Below are positions 6,205-39,794 of a stretch of 64,000 nt of DNA, piece by piece. Numbering within the stretch: position 1 is the first letter of the stretch; every line of letters starts with the position of its first letter. The notes below the pieces were generated by a model. It made no database searches. It was not told where the DNA came from and saw only the letters and a program-made list of their open reading frames with translations. Source of the DNA: a virus. The position numbers were made by a program, and so were the translations under genes. Location: IMG/VR virus record IMGVR_UViG_3300038361_000164, positions 1 through 64,000 of that record; one strand, written 5' to 3'.

Positions 6205-9200
6205 TTAATGTACCCAATGATCGCTAATAACTGCATCTACTTTCATAGGAACAGAGTCTGCATAATGATTAAAAGCTTCAATCATTTTTAACTCCATCAT
6301 CTTAGCGACAGCTTTTGCATCGTCTTCATGTACTTCTACTAGAATTTCCATTTGTGTTGCGAACTAACCGATTCCGTTAGCTCTCTTTAGGTTTCCCCAA
6401 AGATCGGACTATATCATAGGCCCTTCGGCCTTCAAGATCTTTCGGCATATCTTTATACCTACTCGCAATTTTTACGATAGTCTCTGAAGGTGGAATTTTA
6501 TAAATATAATCATGATCATCATATTTTTTTAAAATTTTTGCAATCATAGGAGTATCATGCACTTTAAATTGTATAAAGTATCCTCGACATCCAATTGTTT
6601 TATGACGTGTACCGTGTAACTCAAATTTTTTATTAATAAAAGATACAAAGTTGTCTGCAAATTTTAAACTATATACTTGGCCAATGCTAAGACTATAATA
6701 TTTAAGTTGTCGATGAAAAGTTCCATCGTCAAACATAAGTAAAGCAAATCCCAACTCTGTTAATCCTCCTAATGTTTTTTCTACTTTCCAGAAGTCAGCT
6801 TCCTTTAAAGCATTTAGGATTTCATTTTTACCAACTGTAAATTCGTATAAAATACTCTTTTTATTTACAGAACCCCACAATTTTGAATGTTGTAAAGTTG
6901 TAATTAATGATTGTTTATATTCTAAATAATTTTTTACATATCCTCCGAACTTTATTCTTAAAGTTCGTTTTTGACGCATCCAATATGCATCTCCTAAATA
7001 TGAACTAATTATTACTTGTTGTTCTTGTTTTGTCATTTTATTCCCTCCCTGCTGATTACCCAATCCAAAAGATTTTAGCACTAAGGCACTTTTGGCTCTA
7101 AGGGTTTTCCAGCAAATTATCTTGATTTACCCACGACGCTATTCCGTATCGTGCACAACATTAACAATTCTGGCATCCCATTTGTGAATTTTAATATTGT
7201 TACTTATTTTAACTAGCGCTAACTTAGTAGTACTAGCACCACAGCCTTGAAATGGCATGTTCTTAGCTTCATTAATAGCATGTGACACTTCTCCCTTATT
7301 ATCCCAGTCTATGTGACTTACGTCCATTCTGCGATGATCTAAAGGTGAATAGGTATATCTGTTATGTTCAACTGCCTCAGACAAGTCATCCATTAAGTTT
7401 TTAATATACGGAAATGTTATAAAATATTTCTTCATCAGTTTACGTGCTTCATACAAATTAATACTTAATGTAGCCGCAAGTTTACTAACTCCCATTCCAT
7501 AAAGAATGCCGAAGCTTATTGATTTTGCTGGGTTTCTATATTTTGTTTTCATTTCGTCTATTAACTTACCGTTTTTATCGAAGAACTTTTCATAGTCAAT
7601 TCCAAAAATAAGACTTGCTGAGTAGCAATGTAAGTCCATGTCGTTTTTCAGAGCGTAAATAAATTTAGGCTCTTTGCTCAAATGAGCTAATAATCGCAGT
7701 TCTTGCAGTAATTCCCTAGCTTTCGCTAAGGCCCGGACTCTCTCTTCACCCCAAAGGGTGCGCCGTATATAGTCTCTACACTTGCCCGGAAAGATATATC
7801 TTTCCTGCTAGCTCGGGATTGCCATCAGCATTATCTGTTAAGGTTTCCCCGAATTAGCGGCGTTTTCATCTATAAATTTCTTTATAGCGGAGCCTTGCAA
7901 AAATTTTTCATGTTTTCTCTCTAAATACAAATTACTATCAGCATACAATAAGTCATAAAATTTAACAATTTCTGACTGTGTACACACCCTTACTAAGCCT
8001 AAACCATTTGAAAAGGTTCCAGTAACTTTTAAAAATTGTTTTAAATATGTTTTTAATTGATTAAAAAACAGTTCAGAACCAGTAGCGATTTCAACAGATA
8101 CTCTTTTATCTCCAACACATTTCACACAACCATCACCATCTAAAACTCCTCGCACAATGTGAGATGTTAGTGGTATGTTTAAATGCAAAGTTTTGCTTTT
8201 ATTTGGAGTTATTCCAATTTTATTTAAAAATTGATGTATTTCTTTATTACCAAAGCGTACGCTACACATATATGATCCATATTTTTTATTCTTATAGGAT
8301 TTTGGCTGCACATCATACCCTATAAATTTACTATATTTACATAAATGTTGTACATCTTTTTCATCTGCAGAAACATCTATTGTATATTTGCTATAAGTAG
8401 GAGTGGAAATATTACCATCAGCCGAAATAAATCCTATCCAATATTGAACTTCTTTGTTTGAAAGATCTTTAAAAGGATTGGTTTTCACGACACGTTGGGT
8501 TTCAGAAGGCCCTTTTAAAACATAATTATTTCGCAGCAATATGCGTCTAATTGTAGTGTTATATGTTTTTAAGATTTTCCCTATTTCTGTAGGGTTTTTA
8601 CCTTCATCGTAAAGAGTACATATTTGTAATTCTTGAGAGGGAGTATATTTATTATGTATTGTCATACCTCAATATACTCGTATTTTAAGCAGAAAACAAG
8701 TAAAATATTTCGTTATCTTGACCCGAAAAGTCTGCTGCGATTATTCTATAATCAGGATACTGAGCTGTAAATGCTGCCCTGTATTCCTTTTCTTTTGGTA
8801 TATTCATTAGGTTAGGTGTTCGTCCTGCGAATCTACCTGTGCCTGCACCTAATTGTGCAAAACGAGCATGTATTCGTAGATCAGATGGATGAATATGTTT
8901 TTCTAGAAAAGCTTCTCCATAAGTACTTACTTTTTTTGTAGCTTCTCTATATTTCAATAGTGCATCTGTGGCAGGGCTTCTTAAACTTTTTAAGATTGCA
9001 GCTCCTGTACCAGCGATTTCTTTTCCTAATATCTTTTCTAAAGCAGGTCTTACCTGCAAAGGAGATCCATAATTAATTACCGGGTCTCCAAATAAATCTG
9101 TTTCACATACTTTTTTGAAATATGCATTTAAATCTTTAAAGGCGCTATCAGCTCTTACTAAAGCTTCTTTCTGCAAAAATAACCACTTATCTTTGTTTAT

Positions 9201-9806
9201 AAAAATACCGTTTAATTCCATATCTCCAGAAACTCTCACTACTTCATATTCCAAAGTAGCTAAGTCTTTCATGTCTCTATCTATATGTTTTTTAGTTAGT
9301 ATATCATATAATGGTATTAGATGTTCAACATCTTCTCCAGCATATTTGATTTGCTCTTCTGTAAAAGGGTCTCCCCATTTATGCCCAATAAAGCTTTTCT
9401 GTTCTGTCTTATCTATGTACACATTTAGAAACTTTTTAAGTAATAGTTCTAAATTATGTCGCCATTTGCGACCCATAGAAAGTAATTGACTGCCTATCAT
9501 AGTACATGCCACGTTCTCAAGTTCAACATCAAAATTAGCCTTAATCATTGAATAATCAAATTTCGCATTATGTGCTATTTTGAGAATTTCTTTTGGTTTG
9601 AGCCATTCTAAAAGGGTATAAATATTTTTAGAGCCCAATTGGAAGACGTCGAAGGTATATTGTTTTTGTGTGTTTCCAAGCTGGATAAGTAATACTCGGT
9701 CAACTAAAGGATCTAATCCAGTAGTTTCTGTATCGAATCCTAGAACGGAGCAGGTTTTTAGATAGTTTAATGCAGATTTTAATTCATTTGTGTTTGTTAC
9801 ATACAT
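6205..9806 (-). CDS. Family A DNA polymerase, split by two group I introns
   Basis: Spliced exons are 9806-8721, 7705-7148 and 6348-6205 on the minus strand. Each is a whole number of codons (362, 186, 48), giving 595 aa. Exon 1 carries the 3'-5' exonuclease (FDTET, D25/E27; NAKFDYS; YAGEDVEHL) and most of palm motif A (ADFSG). Exon 2 begins QELRLLAHLS, which completes motif A, carries motif B (R419, K423, F427, Y431) and ends VHD. Exon 3 begins EILVEV, which completes motif C (VHDE). Both junctions follow the group I rule: U ends the upstream exon and G ends the intron. The size resembles T7-like replicative polymerases without a 5' nuclease. The start overlaps the sigma gene end by 10 nt. 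No in-frame TGA. Confidence 0.93.
6349..7147 (-). ncRNA. Group I intron in polymerase motif C, containing a LAGLIDADG gene
   Basis: 799 nt, running from position 7147 down to 6349. Exon 1 ends GTGCACGAT and exon 2 starts GAAATTCTA, giving VHD-E. Core elements seen on the minus strand: a P-like AATTTGCTGGAAA near the 5' end, TTGGGTAATCAGCAGG (Q/R-like) just before the internal gene, and GATATAGTCCGATC (S-like) near the 3' end. The internal gene overlaps the S element. The R element was not assigned with confidence. Confidence 0.85.
6377..7036 (-). CDS. LAGLIDADG homing endonuclease of the motif C intron
   Basis: 219 residues if the start is ATG 7036, chosen because GGGAGGGAATAAA precedes it; an upstream in-frame start at 7081 would run through the intron core. 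The motif GFALLMFDDGTF matches the LAGLIDADG_2 type (ALxxxxDDG), with a first, weaker motif in SSYLGDAYW near the N-terminus. It would cut an intronless polymerase allele at motif C and spread the intron. Its 3' end (RAYDIVRSLGKP) is also the intron's S-element region, so coding and ribozyme constraints overlap. Ends TAA. Confidence 0.85.
   Translation of the reverse strand: MTKQEQQVIISSYLGDAYWMRQKRTLRIKFGGYVKNYLEYKQSLITTLQHSKLWGSVNKKSILYEFTVGKNEILNALKEADFWKVEKTLGGLTELGFALLMFDDGTFHRQLKYYSLSIGQVYSLKFADNFVSFINKKFELHGTRHKTIGCRGYFIQFKVHDTPMIAKILKKYDDHDYIYKIPPSETIVKIASRYKDMPKDLEGRRAYDIVRSLGKPKES
7706..8720 (-). ncRNA. Group I intron in polymerase motif A, containing a LAGLIDADG gene
   Basis: 1015 nt, from 8720 down to 7706. 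The exon junction gives DFSG-QELR. After the internal gene the core elements lie in order on the minus strand: AATTCGGGGAAACC (P), GGCAATCCCGAGC (Q), GTGTAGAGACTATATACGG (R) and AGAGAGTCCGGG (S), ending ATTACTG. This is a near-textbook group I core. The gene's stop codon lies immediately after the P element, so its last codons (NSGKP) are part of it. Confidence 0.93.
7838..8665 (-). CDS. Two-motif LAGLIDADG homing endonuclease of the motif A intron
   Basis: 275 residues. The N-terminus has a helix-turn-helix-like segment (SQELQICTLYDEGKNPTEIG, about residues 10-30), followed by two LAGLIDADG motifs, WIGFISADG (about residue 77) and VRGVLDGDG (about residue 170), so it should act as a monomer. 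It starts 55 nt inside the intron and ends at TAA 7838 within the ribozyme core. It is expected to cleave the uninterrupted motif A site. No in-frame TGA, as for other early genes. Confidence 0.9.
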   Translation of the reverse strand: MTIHNKYTPSQELQICTLYDEGKNPTEIGKILKTYNTTIRRILLRNNYVLKGPSETQRVVKTNPFKDLSNKEVQYWIGFISADGNISTPTYSKYTIDVSADEKDVQHLCKYSKFIGYDVQPKSYKNKKYGSYMCSVRFGNKEIHQFLNKIGITPNKSKTLHLNIPLTSHIVRGVLDGDGCVKCVGDKRVSVEIATGSELFFNQLKTYLKQFLKVTGTFSNGLGLVRVCTQSEIVKFYDLLYADSNLYLERKHEKFLQGSAIKKFIDENAANSGKP

Positions 9807-10609
9807 TCTGTTATAAAGGTTCTGAGTTTCTCGGTTGTTCTTCGTCTTTTAAGTTTTTCTAATACTTTGGCTTTTAATTGTCTGACACGTTCTCTGGTTA
9901 ATCCTAAATCAATTCCGATTTCTTTTAAAGTATATGGACGGATATATTTTCCAAGTCCAAAATAAAGATTAATAATTTCCTTTTCTCTGTCAGTAAAACC
10001 TCTTAAGAGATCATCCAGTTCAACCTTAAATTCCTGCGCTAACTCCGCACTTTGTAAGGTGCGAGAATTAGCGGGAATTATTTCATATAAATTTTTGTTG
10101 TTCTTTGTTTGCGGAGTATCGAGTCCTACGTACCTATACATATAGTGTGTAGTGTTTTTTACATTCTGATTTTGTAAGAATTGATTTAACTCTACCATGC
10201 TAGGTGTACGGCCCAGGGTGTGTTCTAACTCCTCATGTAGCTTAGCAACTTTGTTTTGCTGAGCAATTTGATTCATAGGTAGTCGAATTAATCGACCATT
10301 TTCGTTTAATGCCGTGACAATACTTTGTCGAATCCACCACACAGCATAAGTAATAAACTTTACTCCACGGGTGATATCAAAGCGATCGTACGCTTTTAAC
10401 AACCCCACATTTCCCTCACTTATGAGTTCTTCTAAGGGCAATCCTTTATCTTGATACGTTTTCGCAACAGTAATAACAAATCTTAAATTATGAGTAATAA
10501 TTTGATTATAGGCGTTACGACTGCCAGATTTGGCTAATGCCATTAGTCTAGCTTCTTCTTCTCGTTTTAAAGGCTTTAAATTTGCTATATCGCTTAAATA
10601 TCTTTCCAT
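9797..10609 (-). CDS. RNA polymerase sigma-70 family factor
   Basis: 270 residues. Region 1.2/2 has YLSDIANLKPLKREEE, LRFVITVAKTYQDKG, LISEGNVGLLKAYDRFD and KFITYAVWWIRQSI; region 3 has GRLIRLPMNQ; region 4 has FTDREKEIINLYFGLG and a helix-turn-helix LKEIGIDLGLTRERVRQLKA. All core-binding and DNA-binding regions are present, so it should redirect host RNA polymerase to phage promoters. The leader has ACCAAAAAAATA before the ATG. The stop overlaps the polymerase start. Most similar in style to primary/group 2 sigma factors. Its targets are unknown. Confidence 0.92.
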   Translation of the reverse strand: MERYLSDIANLKPLKREEEARLMALAKSGSRNAYNQIITHNLRFVITVAKTYQDKGLPLEELISEGNVGLLKAYDRFDITRGVKFITYAVWWIRQSIVTALNENGRLIRLPMNQIAQQNKVAKLHEELEHTLGRTPSMVELNQFLQNQNVKNTTHYMYRYVGLDTPQTKNNKNLYEIIPANSRTLQSAELAQEFKVELDDLLRGFTDREKEIINLYFGLGKYIRPYTLKEIGIDLGLTRERVRQLKAKVLEKLKRRRTTEKLRTFITECM

Positions 10610-10908
10610 TATTTTTTTGGTGGGTGGTGAGGTATTAGTGTTACAGTTTTATTGGGATGTACAATTATTTGATCTACTGAACGTCCTTCAGCAAATTCGT
10701 TACAAACCCAACATTTCGGTATTCTGTTTCGTCTAGAACATTTCTCCGGGTGCTTCCAATTGTGAAAAATTTTATCATACTTTTCCTCATCAGATAACTC
10801 TATGCCAGTTTGTCTGTTTGATATTTCTCCAAAATCTGAACTCTGTCTTCGTGTTTGCTTAGCGTGCTTATGTTCGCCTAGAGGTGCTTTAGTGTTTATA
10901 TTAGACAT
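10609..10908 (-). CDS. Small Cys-containing protein of unknown function
   Basis: 99 residues, basic, with C-x8-C-x2-C near residues 57-69 (EKCSRRNRIPKCWVC), possibly a metal or nucleic-acid binding knuckle, and a C-terminal HHPPKK tail. It overlaps the E1-like gene end and the sigma start by single bases, so it is translationally coupled into the Ubl-JAB-E1-sigma operon. No family recognised. Its link to the ubiquitin-like module is by position only. Confidence 0.6.
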   Translation of the reverse strand: MSNINTKAPLGEHKHAKQTRRQSSDFGEISNRQTGIELSDEEKYDKIFHNWKHPEKCSRRNRIPKCWVCNEFAEGRSVDQIIVHPNKTVTLIPHHPPKK

Positions 10909-11501
10909 TAGAATCTTTGAATGTATTGAGAAGGGTTTTGTTCCCCTCTATACCAATTTAAAACTAACTGTGCACCGATTTCCGCAATAATTCTGTTACC
11001 ACCTTGAATGATGTTTTGTTCTAACTGATATTCTAATTGACAGCTTCCGTTTTCTGCATCTTCTTTTACAGTGCTTAATAGTTTTTTCAAAGTATTAGCT
11101 TTATGTTTAGTAAAAAATGCAATAGACTGCCCTTCACTACGAAGGTCAATCCAGTAAGTATTAAGCGTATCCATATGTTTAAACAACATGCGTCTAAATG
11201 TTGTATTATCTACTGCACTAATGATACAATCATATCCAGAAAGTTGACTTGTTTTTAAAATTTTGTGATCATAGCTTACTACCTCATAACGAGCTTCTAT
11301 AGCATCGGCCTTATAATCGAGAATGTCTTCTTCTAAATAATTCTGATATTTGATGTTCTTGTCTTCAACTATATCTGGATCTGCAGCCTCTAAAACTAAT
11401 CCAGGAAGTTGTTCTATATCTTTATAGTGTTGTAAATTGTGAATTAGCCATGATCCTATTCCTCCAAGACCAACTACTAATAATTTTCCACGATTTCTCA
11501 T
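10908..11501 (-). CDS. ThiF/MoeB/E1-like adenylating enzyme
   Basis: 197 residues, shorter than usual MoeB/ThiF (about 250). The Rossmann motif VVGLGGIGSW spans residues 9-18; ADPDIVEDKNIKYQ supplies the Asp/Asn of the ATP site (D41, D43, N49); K64 follows; and SAVDNTTFRR (about 95-104) matches the conserved DN-x-x-x-R. The usual NxxRQ Arg appears as Tyr, and no CxxC zinc site is visible. ThiF-type enzymes adenylate the C-terminal Gly of a ubiquitin-like partner. The ATG overlaps the JAB gene stop (ATGA), and a Ubl candidate lies three genes upstream, so a linked function is likely. Catalytic competence is unproven. Confidence 0.85.
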   Translation of the reverse strand: MRNRGKLLVVGLGGIGSWLIHNLQHYKDIEQLPGLVLEAADPDIVEDKNIKYQNYLEEDILDYKADAIEARYEVVSYDHKILKTSQLSGYDCIISAVDNTTFRRMLFKHMDTLNTYWIDLRSEGQSIAFFTKHKANTLKKLLSTVKEDAENGSCQLEYQLEQNIIQGGNRIIAEIGAQLVLNWYRGEQNPSQYIQRF

Positions 11502-12010
11502 TTACTGCTCGGCTCCTCAATAATTTGTGTTGTCATTAATTCAAAATCTCCGGTTTCTTGTACAAAATATGTATTCATTTTATGTTGTAAATTAGAATAT
11601 ATTAAAAAGAAACCAGTTAGTCCATGATTTTTTCCACCCGATCCTGCAATATCCCATTGAGATGGAATAGGCGCACTGTGCGGATGTGTATGTGTTATAG
11701 CTATGTGCTCGTGCGACGCTTTGGGATTCATTAAACTAGTAGAGTTTAAATACTTAAACCAATCGTTTGGATCGGGCATAAAATCTACTACAGAATTCAA
11801 TCGAGTCTTAGTGTGATGAGCTTTAAAAGCTGAACTATGCTCTTGTGTTTTAGCCAGGTTTATAATTCTAGTGTATTTAGTACTTGTCCAAACATTGTCC
11901 ACTTTGCAGCCGCTCAAAGCCCCGATGATTTCGTCATCAGGGCTCGAAGCTGCGTGAGCTAAATATTCGTTCAATACACTACTAGGTATTTGATGAATAA
12001 TATTTTGCAT
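11498..12010 (-). CDS. JAB/MPN (JAMM) metallopeptidase
   Basis: 170 residues. The complete JAMM metal site is visible: Glu27 in DDEIIGALSG, then H107-x-H109-P110 and S117-x-x-D120 (THTHPHSAPIPSQWD). JAMM proteases cleave isopeptide bonds or trim ubiquitin-like proteins to expose a C-terminal GG. It is coupled to the E1-like gene through ATGA. The terminal TGA is the only TGA found at the end of an early gene. If read as Trp, seven residues (WEIVENY) would be added before TAG at 11477. Confidence 0.92.
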   Translation of the reverse strand: MQNIIHQIPSSVLNEYLAHAASSPDDEIIGALSGCKVDNVWTSTKYTRIINLAKTQEHSSAFKAHHTKTRLNSVVDFMPDPNDWFKYLNSTSLMNPKASHEHIAITHTHPHSAPIPSQWDIAGSGGKNHGLTGFFLIYSNLQHKMNTYFVQETGDFELMTTQIIEEPSSK

Positions 12011-12012
12011 AT

Positions 12013-12810
12013 TTAAATCGAAGCTAAACGCAATGCGTCATATTTGGTTTGTAAAGTAACTATTTTTTTCTCTAATTTTTTAACCATACCCGCTTCTTTG
12101 GAATGATTGATCTGCCAATGGCGAAGAATCCATGTCCATTTTTTATTAGAAAGCCAGTTATGACCGCTTGAACCGTATAAAGCGGAAACGACATCCTCAG
12201 ATATGCGTGTGGCTCTAGCCAATATCCATAGACGAAGATTTTCAGCTGCTGTCACATACTCTTCTAGTCCTTTAGAATCTATAGGACAATCAAAAAGCAC
12301 CTCTTTCATAACATTATCAGTGAAAGTGTTACTGCGTCCTTTTTGTCGCACTAAGTCCCTGGTACCAGATGGAAGAGTACAAGCTGTGTGATCGTCTAGA
12401 CCAAACATTACTCGTTCTAATCGTCCTACCGCACTGGGAGTTAGCAAAGCAGTAGCTCCTAATTGTTGGAGCTTATCAGAACAGGTTCGATTATCCCAAC
12501 CCTCTAAATGTAATTTTTTAAAAAATATAACATTTCGTTCGCTGCCAAAGTATTTGTATGTGCGTAGAACATCGGCCCATACTAAACCTACCTCTATTAG
12601 TCTTTGTCTTAGTTTATATACACTAATATGTAAACTATTGGCAAAGCTTATTTGGGTAAAAGTTGCGCATGGCGGTATAATAAAGGTTCCTATTGCTTCT
12701 CTAACTTTTATAGGCTTTCCGCTTACTGACATTTTTTTTGTTGGAGTCATAAGTTTTCCAACGATACTTCCAAAGTTTTTTGAAGGTCTATTTCTTATTT
12801 CTGTTTTCAT
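12013..12810 (-). CDS. Putative DNA-binding protein in the Ubl module
   Basis: 265 residues with no clear family. The segment TQISFANSLHISVYKLRQRLIEVGL (about residues 53-76) reads as a helix-turn-helix, and the C-terminal 30 residues (MVKKLEKKIVTLQTKYDALRL) form a likely coiled coil. No E2-like catalytic motif is seen, so I do not call it a conjugating enzyme. It sits between the Ubl gene and the JAB gene (2 nt from JAB). The leader contains AATCAAATAGAAAAC. It could be a regulator or a target-recognition protein. Confidence 0.6.
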   Translation of the reverse strand: MKTEIRNRPSKNFGSIVGKLMTPTKKMSVSGKPIKVREAIGTFIIPPCATFTQISFANSLHISVYKLRQRLIEVGLVWADVLRTYKYFGSERNVIFFKKLHLEGWDNRTCSDKLQQLGATALLTPSAVGRLERVMFGLDDHTACTLPSGTRDLVRQKGRSNTFTDNVMKEVLFDCPIDSKGLEEYVTAAENLRLWILARATRISEDVVSALYGSSGHNWLSNKKWTWILRHWQINHSKEAGMVKKLEKKIVTLQTKYDALRLASI

Positions 12811-12836
12811 GTTTTCTATTTGATTATGTTTTCATA

Positions 12837-12854
12837 TAGCAAAAAGTTTTGCTA
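12837..12854 (-). other. Short hairpin after the Ubl gene
   Basis: Perfect inverted repeat TAGCAAA-AAGT-TTTGCTA (extendable by one pair) directly after the Ubl stop codon. No clear U-tract follows, so it may be an RNA processing or stability element, or a weak terminator that lets Ubl exceed its downstream partners. Confidence 0.4.
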
Positions 12855-12855
12855 C

Positions 12856-13086
12856 TTATTTTCCACCATACAAGCTGTTAGTAAGTGTAATGTCTTCCGC
12901 TTCTTCGAGCATCTTTACATTTAACATTTCTGGATCTACAAACTTACCATCTATGTAAGCCCATTTACCATTTCCTGTTTCTGCGATGATTTTTTCAAGA
13001 GCTTGTCCTCCTTCTCCTTCCCATTCATCATGTCCGCTTCTACTTACTATTTTTATGTGTACTTGTTTCTTAACTAATTTTGCCAT
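12856..13086 (-). CDS. Ubiquitin-like / ThiS-like beta-grasp protein ending in GGK
   Basis: 76 residues, the length of ubiquitin. Pattern: beta-hairpin VHIKIVSRSGHDEWEGEG, a helix (QALEKIIAETG, about 29-39), strands (WAYIDGKFVD), a short helix, a last strand DITLTNSLY, and the tail GGK (G74, G75, K76). This order matches the beta-grasp fold of ThiS/MoaD/Ubl carriers, whose terminal Gly is adenylated by ThiF/E1. A single extra Lys would have to be removed, a job for the JAB peptidase encoded 0.8 kb away. Leader TAACCACTAAAAAG precedes the ATG. Fold called by eye only. Confidence 0.7.
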   Translation of the reverse strand: MAKLVKKQVHIKIVSRSGHDEWEGEGGQALEKIIAETGNGKWAYIDGKFVDPEMLNVKMLEEAEDITLTNSLYGGK

Positions 13087-13099
13087 TACTTTTTAGTGG

Positions 13100-15304
13100 T
13101 TATCTTATTGTAGATATATGCTTTGATACCAATCGGTCGTTACTTATTGCATATAATCTATTTACTAATTGATCTTTTCCTGTTTGATCATTACTTTTGT
13201 CAACAATACAGAATCGTTGACCGCTTCCTGCATCGTAAACACTGTTGTCATTGTGTGCGTCGACAACATAGTTTCTTTTCGAGCCTTTGATTAAATAACC
13301 CTGAATCGTAATACGATCGGACAATCTATGAGACTCTTCTTTTATCTTAAATAATTTTTCAGTTTCTTCTAAAAGCTGTTTACTTTTTTGAACAGCTTCT
13401 TCGTACATTTTTTTCCCACTTGAAATCAAAACTCCAATTTGTGAGACGGTAATCGAACTCATACCGCATTGTCCAGTTTTCATCTTATCTAAAAACTCTT
13501 TTGGATTTTGTATTTTAGCTGACAGACGTTCTAGTTTATTAATATTTGAAATACGAATAAAAGCATCATCAATTTTTACATAGTTGATATTCTTTCTTCG
13601 AGCGATTTCCATTCTTACAATAAAATAACTAGAACCAGTTCCAAGACCTGCTATATTAAATAGTAAACCGTTGTGTAAAAATCCATGTATTCTTAAAGAA
13701 CATTTGCTTACTGATTCTACAAAAGCATAATATGCAGTTTGTGTATCGAAACACATTGCTCTTCTAATACAAGCTCCTACTTCTTTACCGTTTATACGCT
13801 TACCATTAATATAAGATAAGTATGAGGTGTATGTAGCAGCGTTAATTTCTCTTAGTTCATGCACAATAGTTGCATCGCCAATTTTATAGGTTCCTGACCA
13901 TTTTTCGGCAAAACTACAGAATTCCTCAAATACATCATCAAAACTAAAATCTTTCCATTTGCTTTGCTTTATATTTTTCTTAATAAATTGAGCTACCCAG
14001 GGATGTTTTACTAAATCTTCTTCCCAATATGGTACATTGGCGGTTATTGCACGCATCTCCAAAACCTGTCCTTCATACTCTATTTTATCGCTGAAGTATT
14101 TCACACCGTTCAGTGTGATAGGTTTTGTAGCAGATAAAGCGTCTAACTTCTTATCAACTTTTTTTGTTACAATAATCTTTATGTCTTTAGCTTTCTTTTC
14201 ATCTGTTTGCTTTTTTGCTGCTAATTTTTTACTTCGTTGAATATCGGCATTAGAAAATACTCGCGCACCTTCTCCAGCTCTAGGAGTAATACGGCGTCTT
14301 GCGTAAGCTAAGAATTGATTTCTAGAATTATGATCTCCAAACATTTGTGGATCTTCCAAATCGTTGTTGAAATAAGCAGCTCTAAGAAGTGTTTGTGCGG
14401 ATCCTTCATAGTTGTTTTGGAAAAAACCACCACTACCATCGAGCAGTATTTGACGATCTACATCTAAAAAATCATGAACTGGTGATGTTTGTGGATGCAC
14501 ACTAAATCTTATTTGACTTTTAGTTTTTCGTCCATTGCTGTAATAATAATTACTGGTTGGCGCTCCTACTAATATAGCCACTCTCCATGTTGGAAATTGT
14601 GCTATACAGGTAATTTTTGCTTCTCTTGAATTATTCGATATACCTTTATTTACCTTGTCATTCCACTGTAATTGTGCATCTTCTTTAAAGATGTCAGACA
14701 ATAAATTCACATAGCCAATGACTGTGCGAAGTGTAGTACCCTCAGCTTCTTGATCTAATTCTTCTATAAATTCTAAATTCCATTGTTTTCTTCTTCCCAT
14801 TAAGGTCTCATTTAAACCTTCTAAGATATTAGCTGTAAGTTCTTTCAATGTAGGTAGAGAATCGCTATATCCTATCAATTTATTAGATAGTCTTTCTACT
14901 TTTTGGGAAATAAGTCGTTTAATATACTTACCTGTCCCTGTAATTAAAAAAGATAGATAATTAGCCGACAATGCATCATCTAGGTCTACTTCCTTAATGC
15001 TTATATATTGCTTACTATAGCCGTCTCCAATGCCAACTTTGTAATGTGGAGTTGTTGTTATTGTCTTTTTGTTCGTGTTTTCTTTTAGTTGGATCCGTTT
15101 AGCGTGCTCTATTATAACTTCATATTTTTCAGTAATAATAGTTGCCTGTAATCCTAACAAGCCGTCTGCATCTAATGAAGCTTTAGATAAATAACCTACT
15201 GAGGCTTTGATCTGGGTCAAAGCGCTTTTGCTTAAACCCAGATCAAATACAGTATTAATTTCTACTAATTCTTCTACGGAACCATATGATTGGTTTCCAT
15301 ACAT
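13100..15304 (-). CDS. Large protein of unknown function next to the Ubl gene (734 aa)
   Basis: No family recognised. The N-terminal half is mixed alpha/beta and includes HPQTSPVHDFLDVDRQILLDGSGG near residue 265. A Lys-rich linker follows (about 345-385, AAKKQTDEKKAKD), then a C-terminal half rich in aromatic and basic residues with a coiled-coil stretch (EAVQKSKQLLEETEKLFKIKEE). It lies 13 nt upstream of the Ubl gene in the same operon, and the 133-aa gene precedes it by 3 nt. No signal peptide or membrane segment. It could be a conjugation target or effector for the Ubl system. Confidence 0.7.
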   Translation of the reverse strand: MYGNQSYGSVEELVEINTVFDLGLSKSALTQIKASVGYLSKASLDADGLLGLQATIITEKYEVIIEHAKRIQLKENTNKKTITTTPHYKVGIGDGYSKQYISIKEVDLDDALSANYLSFLITGTGKYIKRLISQKVERLSNKLIGYSDSLPTLKELTANILEGLNETLMGRRKQWNLEFIEELDQEAEGTTLRTVIGYVNLLSDIFKEDAQLQWNDKVNKGISNNSREAKITCIAQFPTWRVAILVGAPTSNYYYSNGRKTKSQIRFSVHPQTSPVHDFLDVDRQILLDGSGGFFQNNYEGSAQTLLRAAYFNNDLEDPQMFGDHNSRNQFLAYARRRITPRAGEGARVFSNADIQRSKKLAAKKQTDEKKAKDIKIIVTKKVDKKLDALSATKPITLNGVKYFSDKIEYEGQVLEMRAITANVPYWEEDLVKHPWVAQFIKKNIKQSKWKDFSFDDVFEEFCSFAEKWSGTYKIGDATIVHELREINAATYTSYLSYINGKRINGKEVGACIRRAMCFDTQTAYYAFVESVSKCSLRIHGFLHNGLLFNIAGLGTGSSYFIVRMEIARRKNINYVKIDDAFIRISNINKLERLSAKIQNPKEFLDKMKTGQCGMSSITVSQIGVLISSGKKMYEEAVQKSKQLLEETEKLFKIKEESHRLSDRITIQGYLIKGSKRNYVVDAHNDNSVYDAGSGQRFCIVDKSNDQTGKDQLVNRLYAISNDRLVSKHISTIR

Positions 15305-15307
15305 AAT

Positions 15308-15709
15308 TTAATTAAATAGTTCCTTTGTTTCTTCGGTTTCTTCGTCCATGTTGCAACCAACTATGACTAAAAAGTCTCTTGGGTCTGGGCGAAGTTCCAG
15401 TTGTTTTCCTTCAAAATCTTTTAAAGCCGTTACATCATAAAACCTCATTATTTGGGCTAAAGTGCTGTTAGGCAATAATTGTCCTTTTTTATCAGTGGAA
15501 TACCAGTTACCCTTAATTGTAGGCTCCCCGGTTTTATAATCCTGGATAAAGGAATCAGATATTTCGAACGTTCGTTCGTTATCATCAACCATAGTAAAGG
15601 CAATCTTGTCGGAAAGACCACTAGGTGTTTTTATTTCAATTTTTTTCAAAGATACCACTCGCATACTTCTCGCCGTGCTGCCGATTCCTGTGTTTAAAAA
15701 GTCGTTCAT
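15308..15709 (-). CDS. 133-aa protein with acidic C-terminal tail, function unknown
   Basis: A beta-rich body (MRVVSLKKIEIKTPSG, IAFTMVDDNERTFEIS) is followed by an acidic tail (MDEETEETKELFN) resembling in style the partner-binding tails of single-strand DNA-binding proteins. The homology itself is not established. It is the first gene of the operon running through the Ubl, E1 and sigma genes. The leader has AACCAAAACACGAAAAA before the ATG. A terminator and a promoter-like element lie directly upstream. Confidence 0.6.
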   Translation of the reverse strand: MNDFLNTGIGSTARSMRVVSLKKIEIKTPSGLSDKIAFTMVDDNERTFEISDSFIQDYKTGEPTIKGNWYSTDKKGQLLPNSTLAQIMRFYDVTALKDFEGKQLELRPDPRDFLVIVGCNMDEETEETKELFN

Positions 15710-27178: not shown

Positions 27179-27844
27179 CTAGTTGTTTATCCATAAGGTT
27201 TGCTGTCCATCCAATAATAGCGTCCAACCGTGGTCAAAAAGCCACTCCCTAGCTAAACGAGGTTTTCCGCCCCCGGCTAAGTTGTTGTCATCTATTAATA
27301 TAACGGACTGATCTGTTAATTTATCGATTGCTGCTTCCAACTCCTTCAAACAATGTTCTTGACAAGGGTTAATAATATCACTATGAAATTGAACAATATT
27401 GTCATCAGAAAGAACGCAATCGAATCCACCAGGAAGATCTTCCATAGGATAATCAAAACTATCTAAATATAATAAATCTATTTGATGTTCGCAATTGTTT
27501 AAATATTCTACTGAGTCCATAAAAACATATTCTACATAATCATATTGCTTTGTAAATCTTTTTACTCGATTTAAATGCTCCTGAACATTATCAACTGTAA
27601 TTAACTTTCCACCTAATAGATTGATAGTTTCGGCAAAAAGAGCAGTAGACATGCCACCACCCCAATCATTTTCCTCACGCTGACATCCGGTTTCTACTAT
27701 TAGCTTCCCATTGCGTTGATAAAATAAGTTTAAAGCAGCTTTCATAGTAGGATACCTACCATCAAGCTGATTGTATTTATTAAAAAAATCTGTGTTTCTA
27801 ACGTATAAAAACTTTTTTATAGCGTCTGTAAGTACGTTTTCCAT
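27179..27844 (-). CDS. Class I SAM-dependent methyltransferase (FkbM/MT24-like)
   Basis: 221 residues. GKLIVETGCQREENDWGGGMSTALFAE is the SAM loop, GGKLITVDN the acidic strand, LLYLDSFDY the central Asp motif, and SVILIDDNNLAGGGKPRL a late motif. It could methylate a sugar. It overlaps the next gene's end by 28 nt. No TGA codons. Ends TAG. Confidence 0.75.
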   Translation of the reverse strand: MENVLTDAIKKFLYVRNTDFFNKYNQLDGRYPTMKAALNLFYQRNGKLIVETGCQREENDWGGGMSTALFAETINLLGGKLITVDNVQEHLNRVKRFTKQYDYVEYVFMDSVEYLNNCEHQIDLLYLDSFDYPMEDLPGGFDCVLSDDNIVQFHSDIINPCQEHCLKELEAAIDKLTDQSVILIDDNNLAGGGKPRLAREWLFDHGWTLLLDGQQTLWINN

Positions 27845-28842
27845 TGTGTTTGTATGGTTTCTTGTCCAAAATATTGTAAAGCAGTAGCTCTACCATTTGC
27901 TCCTATTTCTCTAGCTAAGTCTATATCATTTAAAAGCAAGTCACAATATTTTCGTAATTGATCCACATCGTCGCTAATAAATCCGTTAATACTGTTTCGT
28001 ATAATTGTATCTATTTCATACAATCCACTAACTCCTAGGTATTGAGCATTTCCATGCACAGGTCCCAAAGCTATAACTGGAATCCCGGTCATTAAAGCTT
28101 CAATAAAGTTTAAAGTATAGCTCGCAGGATGTGTGCCTGTATAAAAATAAGCTCTATTATTTCTCATTTCAGCTTTTAATTGCTCAAAGGAAACTTTACC
28201 AGGAGAGAATTCTAAATGCTCATTTCCAGGTCCAAACAATATTCTTGGTACACTTTTAGTAACTTCATCATAAATAGGAAAATTACAATGAGGTGTACGC
28301 TGTTGCATTGATTGATTAAAAGTAACAATTCTTTTATTTTTACCATTCCAGTTTTTATATTCTTCTGGATCTTTGTAAAAACGAATTAGTGCATCACCTC
28401 CTAAGTATCCAGGAATATTCATTTCGTTTGGAGAATACCTTACGATTTTTAATCCCTGCTCTCTAAAAGGTCTAAGCTCTGCTTCAGTGTTAGTAATAGA
28501 TTGTCCTATGGTTCTCCATATCACAACTTTATGCTTCATAGCTTCCCAGTTTCCTGAAATCCATCTAGGAATGTGCATTACAATAACACAATCAAACATA
28601 TCTACAAATTCTTTAGTTAATCTATCTTTCCCATCTACCGCTCCTTGACAAAGCGTATGATACATGTCTAAATGCTTTTGCTCATACTCAATGTTTAAAA
28701 GTCCGGGACGTAAAGTAGCGTCTCCAGGATTTTTTGGCTCTACATACGCGCCAGGAGAAAAGACATAATGTCCCATCCCAGTTAAAAGTTTTACTTCGTC
28801 ATACTCTAGAATACTGTGACAACTTAAATATAATATTTTCAT
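27817..28842 (-). CDS. GT4-like glycosyltransferase
   Basis: 341 residues. The GT-B C-terminal signature RAYFYTGTHPASYTLNFIEALMTGIPVIALG is followed by NGFISDDVDQLRKYCDLLLND and REIGANGRATALQYF. The N-terminus MKILYLSCHSILEYDEV is a Rossmann start. No in-frame TGA. Overlaps its neighbours. It transfers a sugar in the same pathway as GMD and the aminotransferase. Confidence 0.8.
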   Translation of the reverse strand: MKILYLSCHSILEYDEVKLLTGMGHYVFSPGAYVEPKNPGDATLRPGLLNIEYEQKHLDMYHTLCQGAVDGKDRLTKEFVDMFDCVIVMHIPRWISGNWEAMKHKVVIWRTIGQSITNTEAELRPFREQGLKIVRYSPNEMNIPGYLGGDALIRFYKDPEEYKNWNGKNKRIVTFNQSMQQRTPHCNFPIYDEVTKSVPRILFGPGNEHLEFSPGKVSFEQLKAEMRNNRAYFYTGTHPASYTLNFIEALMTGIPVIALGPVHGNAQYLGVSGLYEIDTIIRNSINGFISDDVDQLRKYCDLLLNDIDLAREIGANGRATALQYFGQETIQTQWKTYLQTL

Positions 28843-29813
28843 TACGACTGTAACCTCGCTAGATCGGAGTCTACCATTTTTATTACAAGTTCTTTAAAAC
28901 TAACTTTAGGAGACCATCCAAGTTCCTGTCTTGCAAAAGCAGAATCGCCTCTTAAAACATTTACTTCTGCAGGACGCATAAATCTTGGATCTTGTTTTAT
29001 ACAATGACGCCAGGTTTCATACCCAATGTGTGTAAACGCGACATCTAAGAAATCTTTAATTGAGTGGGATTTTCCAGTAGCTATTACAAAATCTGTAGGC
29101 TCCTTTTGCTGTAACATCGCCCACATTGCTTTTACATATTCAGGTGCATATCCCCAATCACGTCTAGCTTCAAGATTGCCTAAAGTTATGTGATTTTGAA
29201 TACCCAATCTTATCTTTGCAACACCGTCTGATATTTTTCTAGTAACAAATTCTAATCCACGTCTTTCTGATTCGTGATTAAATAAAATGCCACAACAGTT
29301 ATACATTCCATACGATTCTCTATAATTTACTGTAATATGATGACCGTAAAGTTTAGAAACCCCATAAGGCGATCTTGGACTAAAGGGAGTAGTTTCATCC
29401 ATTAACTCTGTTGTTTGGTTTCCAAACATTTCTGATGAGCTAGCTTGGTAAAACTTTATTTTTTTATTGGTATCAAACTCTCTAATCGCTTCCAACATTC
29501 TTAACACACCTAATCCTGTAACATCACTTGTCTGTTCTGGAGTGTTCCAGCTTTCACCAACAAAAGATTGAGAGGCTAAGTTGTATATTTCGTCGGGATC
29601 GCATACCTTTAAAGCTCTTAGGAGTGAATTTTGGTCTGTCAAATCACCTTGTATAAAAGTAATTTTTTCTTCCAAATGTGCGGTATTTGTTCTATTTTTT
29701 GTGGAAGCTCTACGTTCTAAACCAAAAACTTCATAATTTTTGGTTAATAAAAAATCAGCTAAATGGCTTCCATCCATTCCATTTATGCCTGTAATTAAAG
29801 CACGTTTACTCAT
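28842..29813 (-). CDS. gmd: GDP-mannose 4,6-dehydratase
   Basis: 323 residues, short-chain dehydrogenase. NAD-binding GINGMDGSHLADFL (about 7-20), the catalytic SSSEMFGNQ region, and the SPYGVSKLYGH YxxxK pair are diagnostic; SFVGESWNTPEQT is a GMD signature. It converts GDP-mannose to GDP-4-keto-6-deoxymannose, the precursor of fucose, rhamnose or perosamine. Only TGG for Trp. The start overlaps the upstream gene's stop by 8 nt. Confidence 0.93.
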   Translation of the reverse strand: MSKRALITGINGMDGSHLADFLLTKNYEVFGLERRASTKNRTNTAHLEEKITFIQGDLTDQNSLLRALKVCDPDEIYNLASQSFVGESWNTPEQTSDVTGLGVLRMLEAIREFDTNKKIKFYQASSSEMFGNQTTELMDETTPFSPRSPYGVSKLYGHHITVNYRESYGMYNCCGILFNHESERRGLEFVTRKISDGVAKIRLGIQNHITLGNLEARRDWGYAPEYVKAMWAMLQQKEPTDFVIATGKSHSIKDFLDVAFTHIGYETWRHCIKQDPRFMRPAEVNVLRGDSAFARQELGWSPKVSFKELVIKMVDSDLARLQS

Positions 29814-31428
29814 TCGTATTGTTGGTTAAGGCTACCCATTGTTCTTTAATGGAATCAATGTGTACTTGTTGTTTAATAATTTCTTTGCCCAATAAAGCTT
29901 GAGCCTTATAATAAGCATAATTTTCTTTTAATTCAAGCAATTGTTTAGCTGCATGTGCCACATCCGGTTCGTACTGTTCTCCAACTTTAATTTCTCTCGT
30001 AATATTGCCAGAGTATCTAGCTGTCGAAGCTTCATGGCTGTTAACCCATAAAATACCTGGAACATCTATTAAATCAAGATGTGCTGTGTTTCTACTCAAT
30101 ATTACAGGTATTCCGCAAAGCAAAGCTTGTCTTGGTGTGACACTATATCCTTCCCCTGCGGAGATAAATATATAAGCACTTAAATTTTTCCACCAAGCTA
30201 AATAGTCTTCAAAAATGAGAGTTTCATTTTGAAAACTAATATTTTTTGAATCTAGAGCAAGTATGCTTTCTAAATGTTCTACCATTTCTGGAGTGTTAAC
30301 AAAATCCCTGGAGTGTATAGCAAGAAAATCATTTTCGCTTTTCATTACATTAAAGCTCTCAATAATTTTATCTACTTTTTTACGTTCCCATAGTCCGCCA
30401 GAATAACCAAAAGTTATTTTGTCCGTAGGTGGGTTATTTTCTAAAATTGAATAGTGTGCTATGTGCTCTAACTTGTCGATAGTGGCTTTTGGATATTCTT
30501 TTTGTAAATGTTCATGTAGCCAACTATTAGTTATAACTGTATGGTCGAACATTTCAATCAATGGTTGCAATAAATCAACTCCAGTACTTTCCCACATAAG
30601 GTAAAAATAGGATTCTATGTTATATTTGTTTTTTAAATCTTCAAGCACACGTCTTGTATGCGTAAATATGTTTTCTGCAATGTCTATGCCGGAAACATGT
30701 ATAAATTTAGCATTTTTGTATTTCTCAGGATTTTCTGCATGTGCATTTTCTAAAGTCAAATATAACTTTAACCATTCAAAATCTTTGATATGTCTGTTTA
30801 AATTCTCTTGGGAAAAATCATCTATAGTTTGTAGAAATCTGAAATGCTGTCCAATACGATCATATGCTCTGTAAAATGACACGTTTTTAAAATTACGAAA
30901 AACGTTATCATATAAATTAAACATATGTGCTCCCAGACCATCTTCTCTTAAATAAAAACCATACATAATAATTGGAGTATCCAACCCGTCCTTAACAGGC
31001 AATAGGTGGTCGATATTAATATTTTTAATATGTTCCATTATATCCAATTCACAGGTTTTAACTTCAAATCCTTTTATCTTTAGTTGTTCAAATTTAGAGG
31101 GAGTTTCTTCAAGTGCAGCCATTAATCCTTGAGGTTTTACCAAATCTTTAGGATATCTTGGGGAAATAACGGCATGGACAATTCCATGAAATTGTGTTTC
31201 TTCGTATAAAGAAGTCACAGTTGTAAATTCTAGTTCAGTTTTATTAGCTGATAAAAAAATTTCTGTGGTTATGGGGGAAATAATGCGGTTGCCCCAAACT
31301 AATGTTAGAGTAGTGTTTATATCGTATGGAGTGTTATATGTGACCCTTACTTTATATATGCCGCTTGAGTTAACGTTTTTAACGTCGTGTAGTGTAACAA
31401 TTTTTTGTTGTGGGGTTTCTCTTATCAT
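29806..31428 (-). CDS. GT4 glycosyltransferase with long N-terminal region
   Basis: 540 residues. The N-terminal 115 or so residues (VTYNTPYDINTTLTLVWGN) are beta-rich, perhaps a carbohydrate-binding or Ig-like module. The GT-B part has ITFGYSGGLWERKKVDKIIESF, SAYIFISAGEGYSVTPRQALLCGIPVILS and a C-terminal helix. No in-frame TGA. It is the first gene of the glycan module after the replication cluster. Function: sugar transfer, possibly on a virion protein. Confidence 0.8.
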   Translation of the reverse strand: MIRETPQQKIVTLHDVKNVNSSGIYKVRVTYNTPYDINTTLTLVWGNRIISPITTEIFLSANKTELEFTTVTSLYEETQFHGIVHAVISPRYPKDLVKPQGLMAALEETPSKFEQLKIKGFEVKTCELDIMEHIKNINIDHLLPVKDGLDTPIIMYGFYLREDGLGAHMFNLYDNVFRNFKNVSFYRAYDRIGQHFRFLQTIDDFSQENLNRHIKDFEWLKLYLTLENAHAENPEKYKNAKFIHVSGIDIAENIFTHTRRVLEDLKNKYNIESYFYLMWESTGVDLLQPLIEMFDHTVITNSWLHEHLQKEYPKATIDKLEHIAHYSILENNPPTDKITFGYSGGLWERKKVDKIIESFNVMKSENDFLAIHSRDFVNTPEMVEHLESILALDSKNISFQNETLIFEDYLAWWKNLSAYIFISAGEGYSVTPRQALLCGIPVILSRNTAHLDLIDVPGILWVNSHEASTARYSGNITREIKVGEQYEPDVAHAAKQLLELKENYAYYKAQALLGKEIIKQQVHIDSIKEQWVALTNNTNE

Positions 31429-37092: not shown

Positions 37093-38580
37093 TTATTTGG
37101 ATAAATATTTTTTATTACATAAAAAGTTGCAAAAAATTCCACAACTTAAATTGTTTTGGTTATTTAAATCAGCAGAGTCTGTCATAACGGCAGACCACGT
37201 GTCGAAAAGATGGCTTTTACCGAGAGGGCACTCAATTTTAGCAACCTTATGTAGAGCTCTTTTGAGATTAGAAACTCTGTTTTCCAATCGCCCTATTTGC
37301 ACCTTTAATTTTAAGAAATTTTTGGCAGAAGTCAAGGTCTCAGATGATAAATCTCCATATTTTTTTGCCAAAATTTGTGTGATATTATAATCATTTAGTT
37401 CTAGTTTAAAGTTATCTGGAGCATAATTAGAGAGTTGTTTGTTTACACGATCTCTTAAAAGGTGAACTCTTTTCATGGAAATATTTTTTCTACCGCTACC
37501 CTTTCGATCTGCAATGCGCAAATCTAATAAGTTGTGTACATTTTTACTGCCAATTTTGGCAATAAACTTTTTCACAGAAGCGGTTGAGGAAATCTTTCTT
37601 GAATCAAATAAATGATTTTTCACTAACGATATTACTGTGTTACTTATATCTTTTGAAAAGCCCCATCTGTATAGGATTCTTTCAGTTAACAATGCTCCTA
37701 CGTTTTCATGATTATAGAAATGCTGCCCAGTTTCAGTTACTACCGATGTGTGGGGTTTGCCTATGTCATGCAGAAGCCCTGCTAAGCGTATCAATACTGT
37801 GTTATTTTTTCCAATAGGAACACAGTCAAGTGTTAGCATAATGTGATCGTATAAGGTCATACCCTTACTTTTGTTGGACTGTTCTAAGGAACGTGTTTTT
37901 AAAAGTTCTGGAAATAACTCTTCCAATAGTTTAAAGTTCAGTAACATATCAAAACAACGACTCGGTTTAACACAACGTGTAAGTAGTTTTTTCAACTCTG
38001 TTGCAATTTGGCGAGTATGTGCGCTAACAATTTTTAAGCGATTATGGCTCAATATTTGAAGGGTGGCGGAATTTACTCTCCAGTCAGGTCCTAATATAGC
38101 TGCTAGAATGGGTGCGCGTATCAATCGTATTTTAGATTCCATTATGCGCTCATTTCCATCTCCAACAAATCTAATTATTTTGTTTTTCAAATCTTTTTGA
38201 CCGTCATGAAAATCTATTACAGCATCCTTTTGGACATCGTAATACATAGCATTAACAGTAAAATCTCTAGAATTCGAATCTTCCAATAATGAATCTGTAA
38301 AAGTTTGACTATAGTAGGTATTGTTTAGTGTGACCTTTTTCAAGGGATATAGATTAACTATATTTTTTCCTAAACGAATAGTTATAGAAGTGTTATAAGG
38401 ATTAATACTTATAATAATATTTTTCAGCTTTTTCTGCAATACTTCCATAGTAGCTGAAACTACAAAATCTAACCCATAAGGAGTCTTCTTTAGTAAAAGA
38501 TCCCTAACAGTTCCCCCGCAAGCATATACTTTCAGATCGTATGCTTCCAAGTTTTTCGCAATGTGTTTTAAAGTGTCCAT
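37093..38580 (-). CDS. CCA-adding/poly(A) polymerase-like nucleotidyltransferase with HD domain
   Basis: 495 residues. GGTVRDLLLKK (22-32) and SRDFTVNAMYYD are hallmarks of tRNA nucleotidyltransferases, followed by a C-terminal HD domain (GLLHDIGKPH, about 275-284). It could repair or mature tRNA 3' ends, useful if the phage depends on its own tRNAs. Odd point: the metal-binding DxD after GGxVRD reads GLD, so the first Asp is absent. That may change activity or reflect a different enzyme. Stop is 8 nt from the primase ATG. Confidence 0.8.
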   Translation of the reverse strand: MDTLKHIAKNLEAYDLKVYACGGTVRDLLLKKTPYGLDFVVSATMEVLQKKLKNIIISINPYNTSITIRLGKNIVNLYPLKKVTLNNTYYSQTFTDSLLEDSNSRDFTVNAMYYDVQKDAVIDFHDGQKDLKNKIIRFVGDGNERIMESKIRLIRAPILAAILGPDWRVNSATLQILSHNRLKIVSAHTRQIATELKKLLTRCVKPSRCFDMLLNFKLLEELFPELLKTRSLEQSNKSKGMTLYDHIMLTLDCVPIGKNNTVLIRLAGLLHDIGKPHTSVVTETGQHFYNHENVGALLTERILYRWGFSKDISNTVISLVKNHLFDSRKISSTASVKKFIAKIGSKNVHNLLDLRIADRKGSGRKNISMKRVHLLRDRVNKQLSNYAPDNFKLELNDYNITQILAKKYGDLSSETLTSAKNFLKLKVQIGRLENRVSNLKRALHKVAKIECPLGKSHLFDTWSAVMTDSADLNNQNNLSCGIFCNFLCNKKYLSK

Positions 38581-39212: not shown

Positions 39213-39794
39213 TTATTTTAGTTTGTTCTTGCAGATAAGTATACCATTTAAGTGATCCATCTCATGTTGCACTATAAACGGAGCTATACTTGCGGCTGCG
39301 TAAAATTTAATTGTTTTAGGTTCTTTAGAATCAAGTTCGTAGTAAGTTAAAACTACGTTCGATCTTCTAATTACTTTGTATGTTTGACCAGGAAGACTTA
39401 AACAGCCTTCCATTCTCTTCACCTTTTTACCAGATAATATAATTGTTGCATTTATTATTATTTTCCAACCCCAATGTATTTGCTTATCTGAAAATGTTGG
39501 CCATCGCATTAAGAAAATTGATGGACATGATTCTTCTGGCTTATCCCAAATTTGAGGAGCTGCAAGACCAATTGCGTTAATATTGCCTTTGTCATCTTTT
39601 AGAGAAGTTGCCGTGTCTATGAGATTTTCACATAATTCGATTATGTCGTCTGGCCAAGCATATTTTTGCTTGTCGTCATCAGCAGTTGTTAATGCTCCGG
39701 TCAACAATCCCGCAGGTACGCAAGGACTTGTTTTTTCGATTAACATTACTGCCTCTGGATTATCGTCTGTGAACGTGTTTATTTTTTTATTCAT
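39213..39794 (-). CDS. def: Peptide deformylase
   Basis: 193 residues with all three active-site motifs: GLAAPQ (76-81), EGCLSLP (129-135, Cys ligand) and HEMDH (177-181). It removes formyl groups from new proteins. Phage-borne deformylases are known and may speed early phage protein maturation. It is somewhat long at the N-terminus (about 40 extra residues). The ATG overlaps the helicase gene stop. Confidence 0.93.
   Translation of the reverse strand: MNKKINTFTDDNPEAVMLIEKTSPCVPAGLLTGALTTADDDKQKYAWPDDIIELCENLIDTATSLKDDKGNINAIGLAAPQIWDKPEESCPSIFLMRWPTFSDKQIHWGWKIIINATIILSGKKVKRMEGCLSLPGQTYKVIRRSNVVLTYYELDSKEPKTIKFYAAASIAPFIVQHEMDHLNGILICKNKLK

Follow-up and report, generated by a model that had tools for sequence, protein, structure and literature searches.

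Sequence analysis identified a real and conserved jumbo-phage operon that encodes a ubiquitin-like protein (Ubl), a JAMM peptidase, and an E1-like adenylating enzyme, and that is a new viral variant of the Ubl-E1-JAMM systems, the output of which we infer from its parts. At least ten related viruses encode the Ubl and the E1 together, usually with the JAMM peptidase as well, and these genes very probably constitute a functional module in which Ubl, E1, and JAMM act together in one way or another. The operon suggests that these phages have machinery of their own either for protein tagging or for carrying sulfur.

The window analyzed here, a stretch of 64,000 nucleotides, comprises bases 1–64000 of a 210,263-bp IMG/VR virus record, and tail sheath and primase genes elsewhere in the window agree with its identity as a phage. 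The operon lies on the minus strand and is nearly gapless, with genes in the order 133-aa protein (f133), 734-aa protein (f734), 76-aa Ubl, 265-aa protein, JAMM peptidase, E1, and 99-aa protein (f99). The Ubl, JAMM, and E1 reading frames were all recovered on this strand where the original prediction had placed them, including the overlap of the JAMM stop at 11498 with the E1 start at 11501; position 10908 is likewise common to the E1 and 99-aa ORFs. A ribonucleotide reductase (RNR) gene flanks the operon on one side and a sigma-70 factor gene on the other. The proposal that the system acts in anti-defence or tail modification found no direct support; the surroundings are replication and nucleotide genes (RNR, PolA, RecU, and the sigma factor). 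The DNA polymerase A gene in this neighborhood (window:6377–9806) is split over 8685–9806 and 7139–7681, with LAGLIDADG endonuclease genes at 7838–8665 and 6377–7081, a layout resembling that produced by inteins or by homing genes carried in introns. Elsewhere in the window, genes for glycosyltransferase, methyltransferase, and nucleotide-sugar epimerase functions are grouped together (27179–31428), and the phage encodes a peptide deformylase (39213–39794) and a tRNA nucleotidyltransferase (37093–38580).

The Ubl (12856–13086, minus strand) has the C-terminus LYGG-K, in which the codons of Gly74-Gly75 occupy positions 12862–12867 and are followed by K76 and the stop. Searches of Pfam, NCBIfam, and the PDB gave no convincing sequence match for this protein, and no sequence similarity to any known Ubl was detectable, including ThiS and PRTRC-C. 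An AlphaFold2 model built with 11 homologues (pLDDT 80, pTM 0.64) predicts a beta-beta-alpha-beta-beta-alpha-beta arrangement, with strands at residues 9–15, 18–24, 41–45, 48–50, and 66–70, helices at 26–38 and 57–62, and a loose tail. In Foldseek searches, its best PDB matches were nearly all ubiquitin-fold proteins (NEDD8, SUMO, and ubiquitin), and archaeal ubiquitin and Mth1743 were within the top 50; probabilities were 0.95–1 and E-values about 1e-3, with TM scores of only 0.42–0.52. The predicted fold is thus convincing as a family assignment and modest as a structural fit, and the beta-grasp fold first proposed for this protein is borne out as a prediction, its structure being unsolved. 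The conservation of the Gly-Gly pair, checked by alignment, is complete (11/11 Ubls). Eight of these proteins stop exactly at GG, the window protein adds a lysine, that of locus L036 adds NAN, and that of L015 continues into a fused domain. Among 123 ATG ORFs of at least 50 aa in the window, one ends exactly in GG and four carry the pair somewhere in their final five residues, so that an invariant pair in 11 homologues is more than expected by chance. The L015 protein (L015:6677–7498) carries a cysteine-rich linker and a further domain after GG, 196 aa in total, for which we found neither a Pfam match nor a homologue among the loci compared.

The JAMM/JAB metallopeptidase (170 aa; 11498–12010, minus strand) matches Pfam Prok-JAB at 7.8e-10, and its profile matches solved JAMM structures (PDB 2kcq at 7e-12, PfJAMM1 at 3e-11). 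The complete active site claimed from the window sequence (E27, H107-x-H109-P, S117-x-x-D120) is present, and nine of nine homologues share its residues E27, H107, H109, S117, and D120 (motif E, H-x-H-x7-S-x2-D). The idea that JAMM trims GGK to GG needs narrowing: as a general or sole role it fails, since eight of the 11 Ubls already end in GG, whereas the 196-aa extension in L015 would require a cut behind GG in at least that phage. That JAMM is kept although most Ubls need no trimming suggests that it also cleaves conjugates. Reversal would not be universal, however, because two divergent phages, L037 (230 kb) and L047 (147 kb), have retained E1, f734, and Ubl with no JAMM detected anywhere in their records.

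The E1 (197 aa; 10908–11501, minus strand) was originally described as a ThiF-type adenylating enzyme, in agreement with its Pfam match to ThiF (5.9e-10). Its glycine loop, D41, D43, K64, D98, and S153-C154-Q155 are invariant in all 12 E1s aligned, and C154, which hhalign places opposite a cysteine conserved in E. coli ThiF, is a candidate catalytic cysteine on this sequence comparison. The arginine of the NxxRQ motif is replaced by tyrosine in 12/12 E1s, and the remaining ThiF/E1 signature residues (GxGGxG, DxD, Lys, Asp, and Cys) are present and invariant. The protein begins at the first beta strand and has no C-terminal extension; being short at both ends, it resembles minimal E1s. No N-terminal arginine finger was seen in this sequence, and its lack, together with that of the NxxRQ arginine, leaves honest doubt about the ATP chemistry of the enzyme.

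Single-sequence searches of IMG/VR and phage records with E1 and f734 gave no match. Related phages were instead reached via the neighboring RNR gene, and in these the operon is complete and its gene order preserved. Scans with E1 alignments and, independently, with an f734 alignment yielded about ten distinct lineages and recovered one and the same gene set, so the expected co-occurrence of Ubl, JAMM, and E1 genes in related phages was confirmed. Most relatives contain the block f133-f734-Ubl-JAMM-E1-f99, with f99 and f133 not found in every contig. In the one pair compared (L028 and L034), dN/dS was 0.06–0.12 for f133, f734, Ubl, JAMM, and E1, which indicates that this gene set is maintained by purifying selection. 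In L047, a GroES-like ORF, recognized by eye, separates the f734 relative from the Ubl (L047:8805–9086).

More distant cassettes were also observed. The crAss-like phages cr85_1 (L025:4029–8385) and L016–L023 encode a possible Ubl-like protein and a ThiF-type E1 together with a JAMM-containing protein, a protein of 371–434 aa, and one further unknown. The 371-aa family has an HSH...PCLGxGP motif, by eye perhaps an E2-like site. The crAss-like E1 is matched by 77 phage records, in many of which it is annotated as thiamine biosynthesis, and the single match in a bacterial genome scan with our E1 was of this kind. In L038 (1567–5530), an E1 adjoins a JAB gene, and nearby are a chaperonin-like gene and one with weak resemblance to TFIIB (Pfam 0.005); this is perhaps an archaeal virus with a related E1/JAB pair.

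Among the remaining operon genes, f734 (13100–15304, minus strand) is the large conserved partner. All nine contigs found by the f734 scan also carry E1, and f734 lies directly upstream of Ubl in most relatives. Its ten aligned members share an invariant C518 and N500-R503-N505-E508. It matched no known family and, in Foldseek, no PDB fold; its look-alikes are viral proteins without a name, a result that a poor model (pLDDT 62) keeps from being decisive. The idea that f734 hides an E2 was not supported by hhalign, PDB profile, or Foldseek comparisons, the last subject to the same model quality. As it is always present and adjoins Ubl in most relatives, f734 is the best candidate for a ligase, adaptor, or substrate. 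Of the 734-aa and 265-aa neighbors earlier suggested as possible targets or specificity factors, the former is constant and the latter is not: the 265-aa protein (12013–12810, minus strand) has a homologue only in an L007-type phage (23% identity), is absent from most relatives, and is a non-core accessory protein. It looks helix-turn-helix-like by eye. Gene order had raised the idea that it is a PRTRC-B-type E2, which we rejected given the lack of a profile match and its absence from most relatives. The small protein f99 (10609–10908, minus strand) is probably zinc-binding, judging from the motif H-N-W-x5-C...C-x2-C, in which H49, C57, C66, and C69 are invariant in six members. The first gene of the cassette, f133 (15308–15709, minus strand), has same-place homologues in seven relatives and no family match in the profile libraries searched.

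We give even chances to protein conjugation as the output of the module. The best explanation, which has about equal odds of being right or wrong, is a phage-encoded, reversible, E2-less Ubl system of the SAMP/Urm1 type with f734 as its constant partner; it draws on features read from sequence or a model, namely the predicted fold and unvarying GG of the Ubl, a JAMM whose active site is intact, the signature residues of the E1, and a gene set that stays fixed and is under purifying selection. In such a system, JAMM would remove the residues after Gly-Gly (the lysine in the window, the whole domain in L015), and E1 would adenylate the Gly-Gly carboxylate with ATP and hold the Ubl as a thioester on C154. 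The Ubl would then be passed, directly or via f734, to lysines on f734 or on further proteins of the phage or its host, to some presumed benefit during infection, and JAMM would cut it off again. A bolder and rather doubtful extension is that f734 represents a new Ubl transferase class or a dedicated substrate that replaces E2/E3, and that these jumbo phages run self-contained protein tagging during infection, possibly on the replication machinery.

The same parts could also serve a sulfur carrier, in which E1 adenylates the Ubl to form a thiocarboxylate whose sulfur enters a pathway for tRNA, nucleotides, or cofactors, and JAMM trims the precursor or frees a CysO-cysteine-like adduct. The parts list is that of QbsC/D/E and CysO-Mec, the E1 is short like ThiF/MoeB, small prokaryotic JAMMs lie closest to the JAMM in profile comparison, and the Ubl ends in GG as ThiS does. 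However, the 210-kb record contains no recognizable rhodanese or PALP cysteine synthase, although the controls were positive, its only Aminotran_5 match is weak, below cut-off, and broken by a stop, and no sulfur enzyme was found among the scanned neighbors. Iyer 2006 (PMC1779556), moreover, came upon no JAB genes in thiamine and Moco operons. Since the host might supply sulfur, the missing rhodanese and cysteine synthase lower the probability of this role without removing it, and we regard it as unlikely.

Counter-defence, with E1, Ubl, or JAMM disturbing host CBASS, Bil, or Bub conjugation as a decoy or deconjugase, appears distinctly improbable. Ubl conjugation is known as a defence (PMC10097602; reviewed in PMC12948488), Borgs carry many deSAMPylases for which counter-defence has been proposed (PMC12660748), and our E1 and JAMM weakly match the PADLOC E1-E2 and JAB models; yet a decoy or deconjugase requires neither an intact Ubl of its own nor a constant 734-aa partner, and the genes are inherited together and kept by purifying selection. 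Lastly, proteolytic maturation, in which the Ubl is a detachable N-terminal segment or a tag for folding, JAMM frees it from proteins to which it is fused or attached, and E1 is a specialized binder, would suit the L015 fusion right after GG and has a phage Ubl and JAB precedent in lambdoid TAPI/TAPK (PMC1779556), but is very improbable, as ten of 11 Ubls have no fused domain, the strongly conserved adenylating enzyme would be left without a role, and the operon lies outside any tail gene block.

The open literature searched, a scope that leaves room for prior notice in subscription papers and preprints, held no description of a phage Ubl-E1-JAMM operon, and a 2021 survey that compared 224 jumbo phages named no Ubl, JAB, or ThiF protein (PMC7824862). 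Bacterial Ubl conjugation acts in antiviral defence, and a conserved counterpart in viruses, equipped with a modifier of its own, would reverse the roles. With three small proteins and one unknown partner, the system is compact and testable, and the distant E1/JAMM cassettes in cultured crAss-like phages offer laboratory models.

Sulfur carriers of the QbsC/CysO type and CBASS had initially been named among the known parallels; the nearest relative of the E1 is instead plasmid PRTRC ThiF. Its best NCBIfam match is PRTRC_ThiF (TIGR03736; E 4.1e-13, although at 49 bits against a cut-off of 144.75 bits), hhalign profile comparison with PRTRC ThiF gave 99.6%, and the plasmid tblastn matches listed for E1 are all PRTRC ThiF. 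In the tree, jumbo-phage and PRTRC E1s group together against the crAss-like E1s and ThiF/MoeB (support 88/80). PRTRC is operon type 6d of Iyer 2006 (PMC1779556), because the parts agree and Pelobacter propionicus is listed there. Both systems occur on mobile elements and encode a small Ubl, a JAB protein, and a related E1 in the order Ubl ... JAB-E1. Unlike PRTRC, the phage operon has the 734-aa protein, which is not found in PRTRC, and the phage Ubls carry a C-terminal GG, whereas the PRTRC-C proteins examined end in GTKG or GTKA. Prok_Ub (PF14454), which PRTRC-C matches at 3e-30, does not match the phage Ubl or its relatives, and DUF2016, present with Prok-JAB in the PRTRC-A protein of L005, is absent from the phage JAMM, which has Prok-JAB only. 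A PRTRC-B E2 of family D (Prok-E2_D, PF14460) was not detected in the 210-kb record, with a weak control signal, and neither the 265-aa protein nor f734 matches this family; there was also no match to the PRTRC ParB-family protein. Since these four elements were not found, the operon is not classed as PRTRC: by sequence, it appears related through its E1 and stands outside the PRTRC system proper.

The QbsC/D/E and CysO-Mec sulfur carriers combine a Ubl, with or without residues past GG, with a JAMM and an E1. They differ from the phage operon in their setting, as metabolic or sulfur-transfer genes are neither beside it nor found in the record. CBASS Cap2/Cap3, Bil, and Bub share with it E1-like and JAB-type enzymes and a conjugation logic, but have E2 domains or proteins, whereas no E2, nucleotidyltransferase, or defence context was recognized in the phage operon. 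The original prediction of no evident E2 thus agrees with the models tried: neither PF14461 nor PF14460 matched (the PF14460 control being weak). PF00179 gave no signal either, but its control was silent everywhere, which makes that search uninformative. Lambdoid TAPI/TAPK, described among tail-protein Ubl and JAB pairs in phages (Iyer 2006, PMC1779556), likewise join a phage Ubl and a JAB as a unit; they lack an E1 and belong to the tail block, in which the phage operon does not lie. SAMP1-UbaA-HvJAMM1 and Urm1-Uba4 resemble the phage operon in having a GG-ended Ubl, a single E1, a JAMM (in SAMP), and no dedicated E2; they are non-viral, use another E1 subfamily, and have no f734, and conjugation, proposed for the phage operon, is demonstrated for them. 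With its E2-less design and similar parts list, SAMP1/HvJAMM1, in which the JAMM cleaves both isopeptide-linked Ubl and a linear Ubl fusion (PMC4443979), would by analogy be the nearest working parallel.
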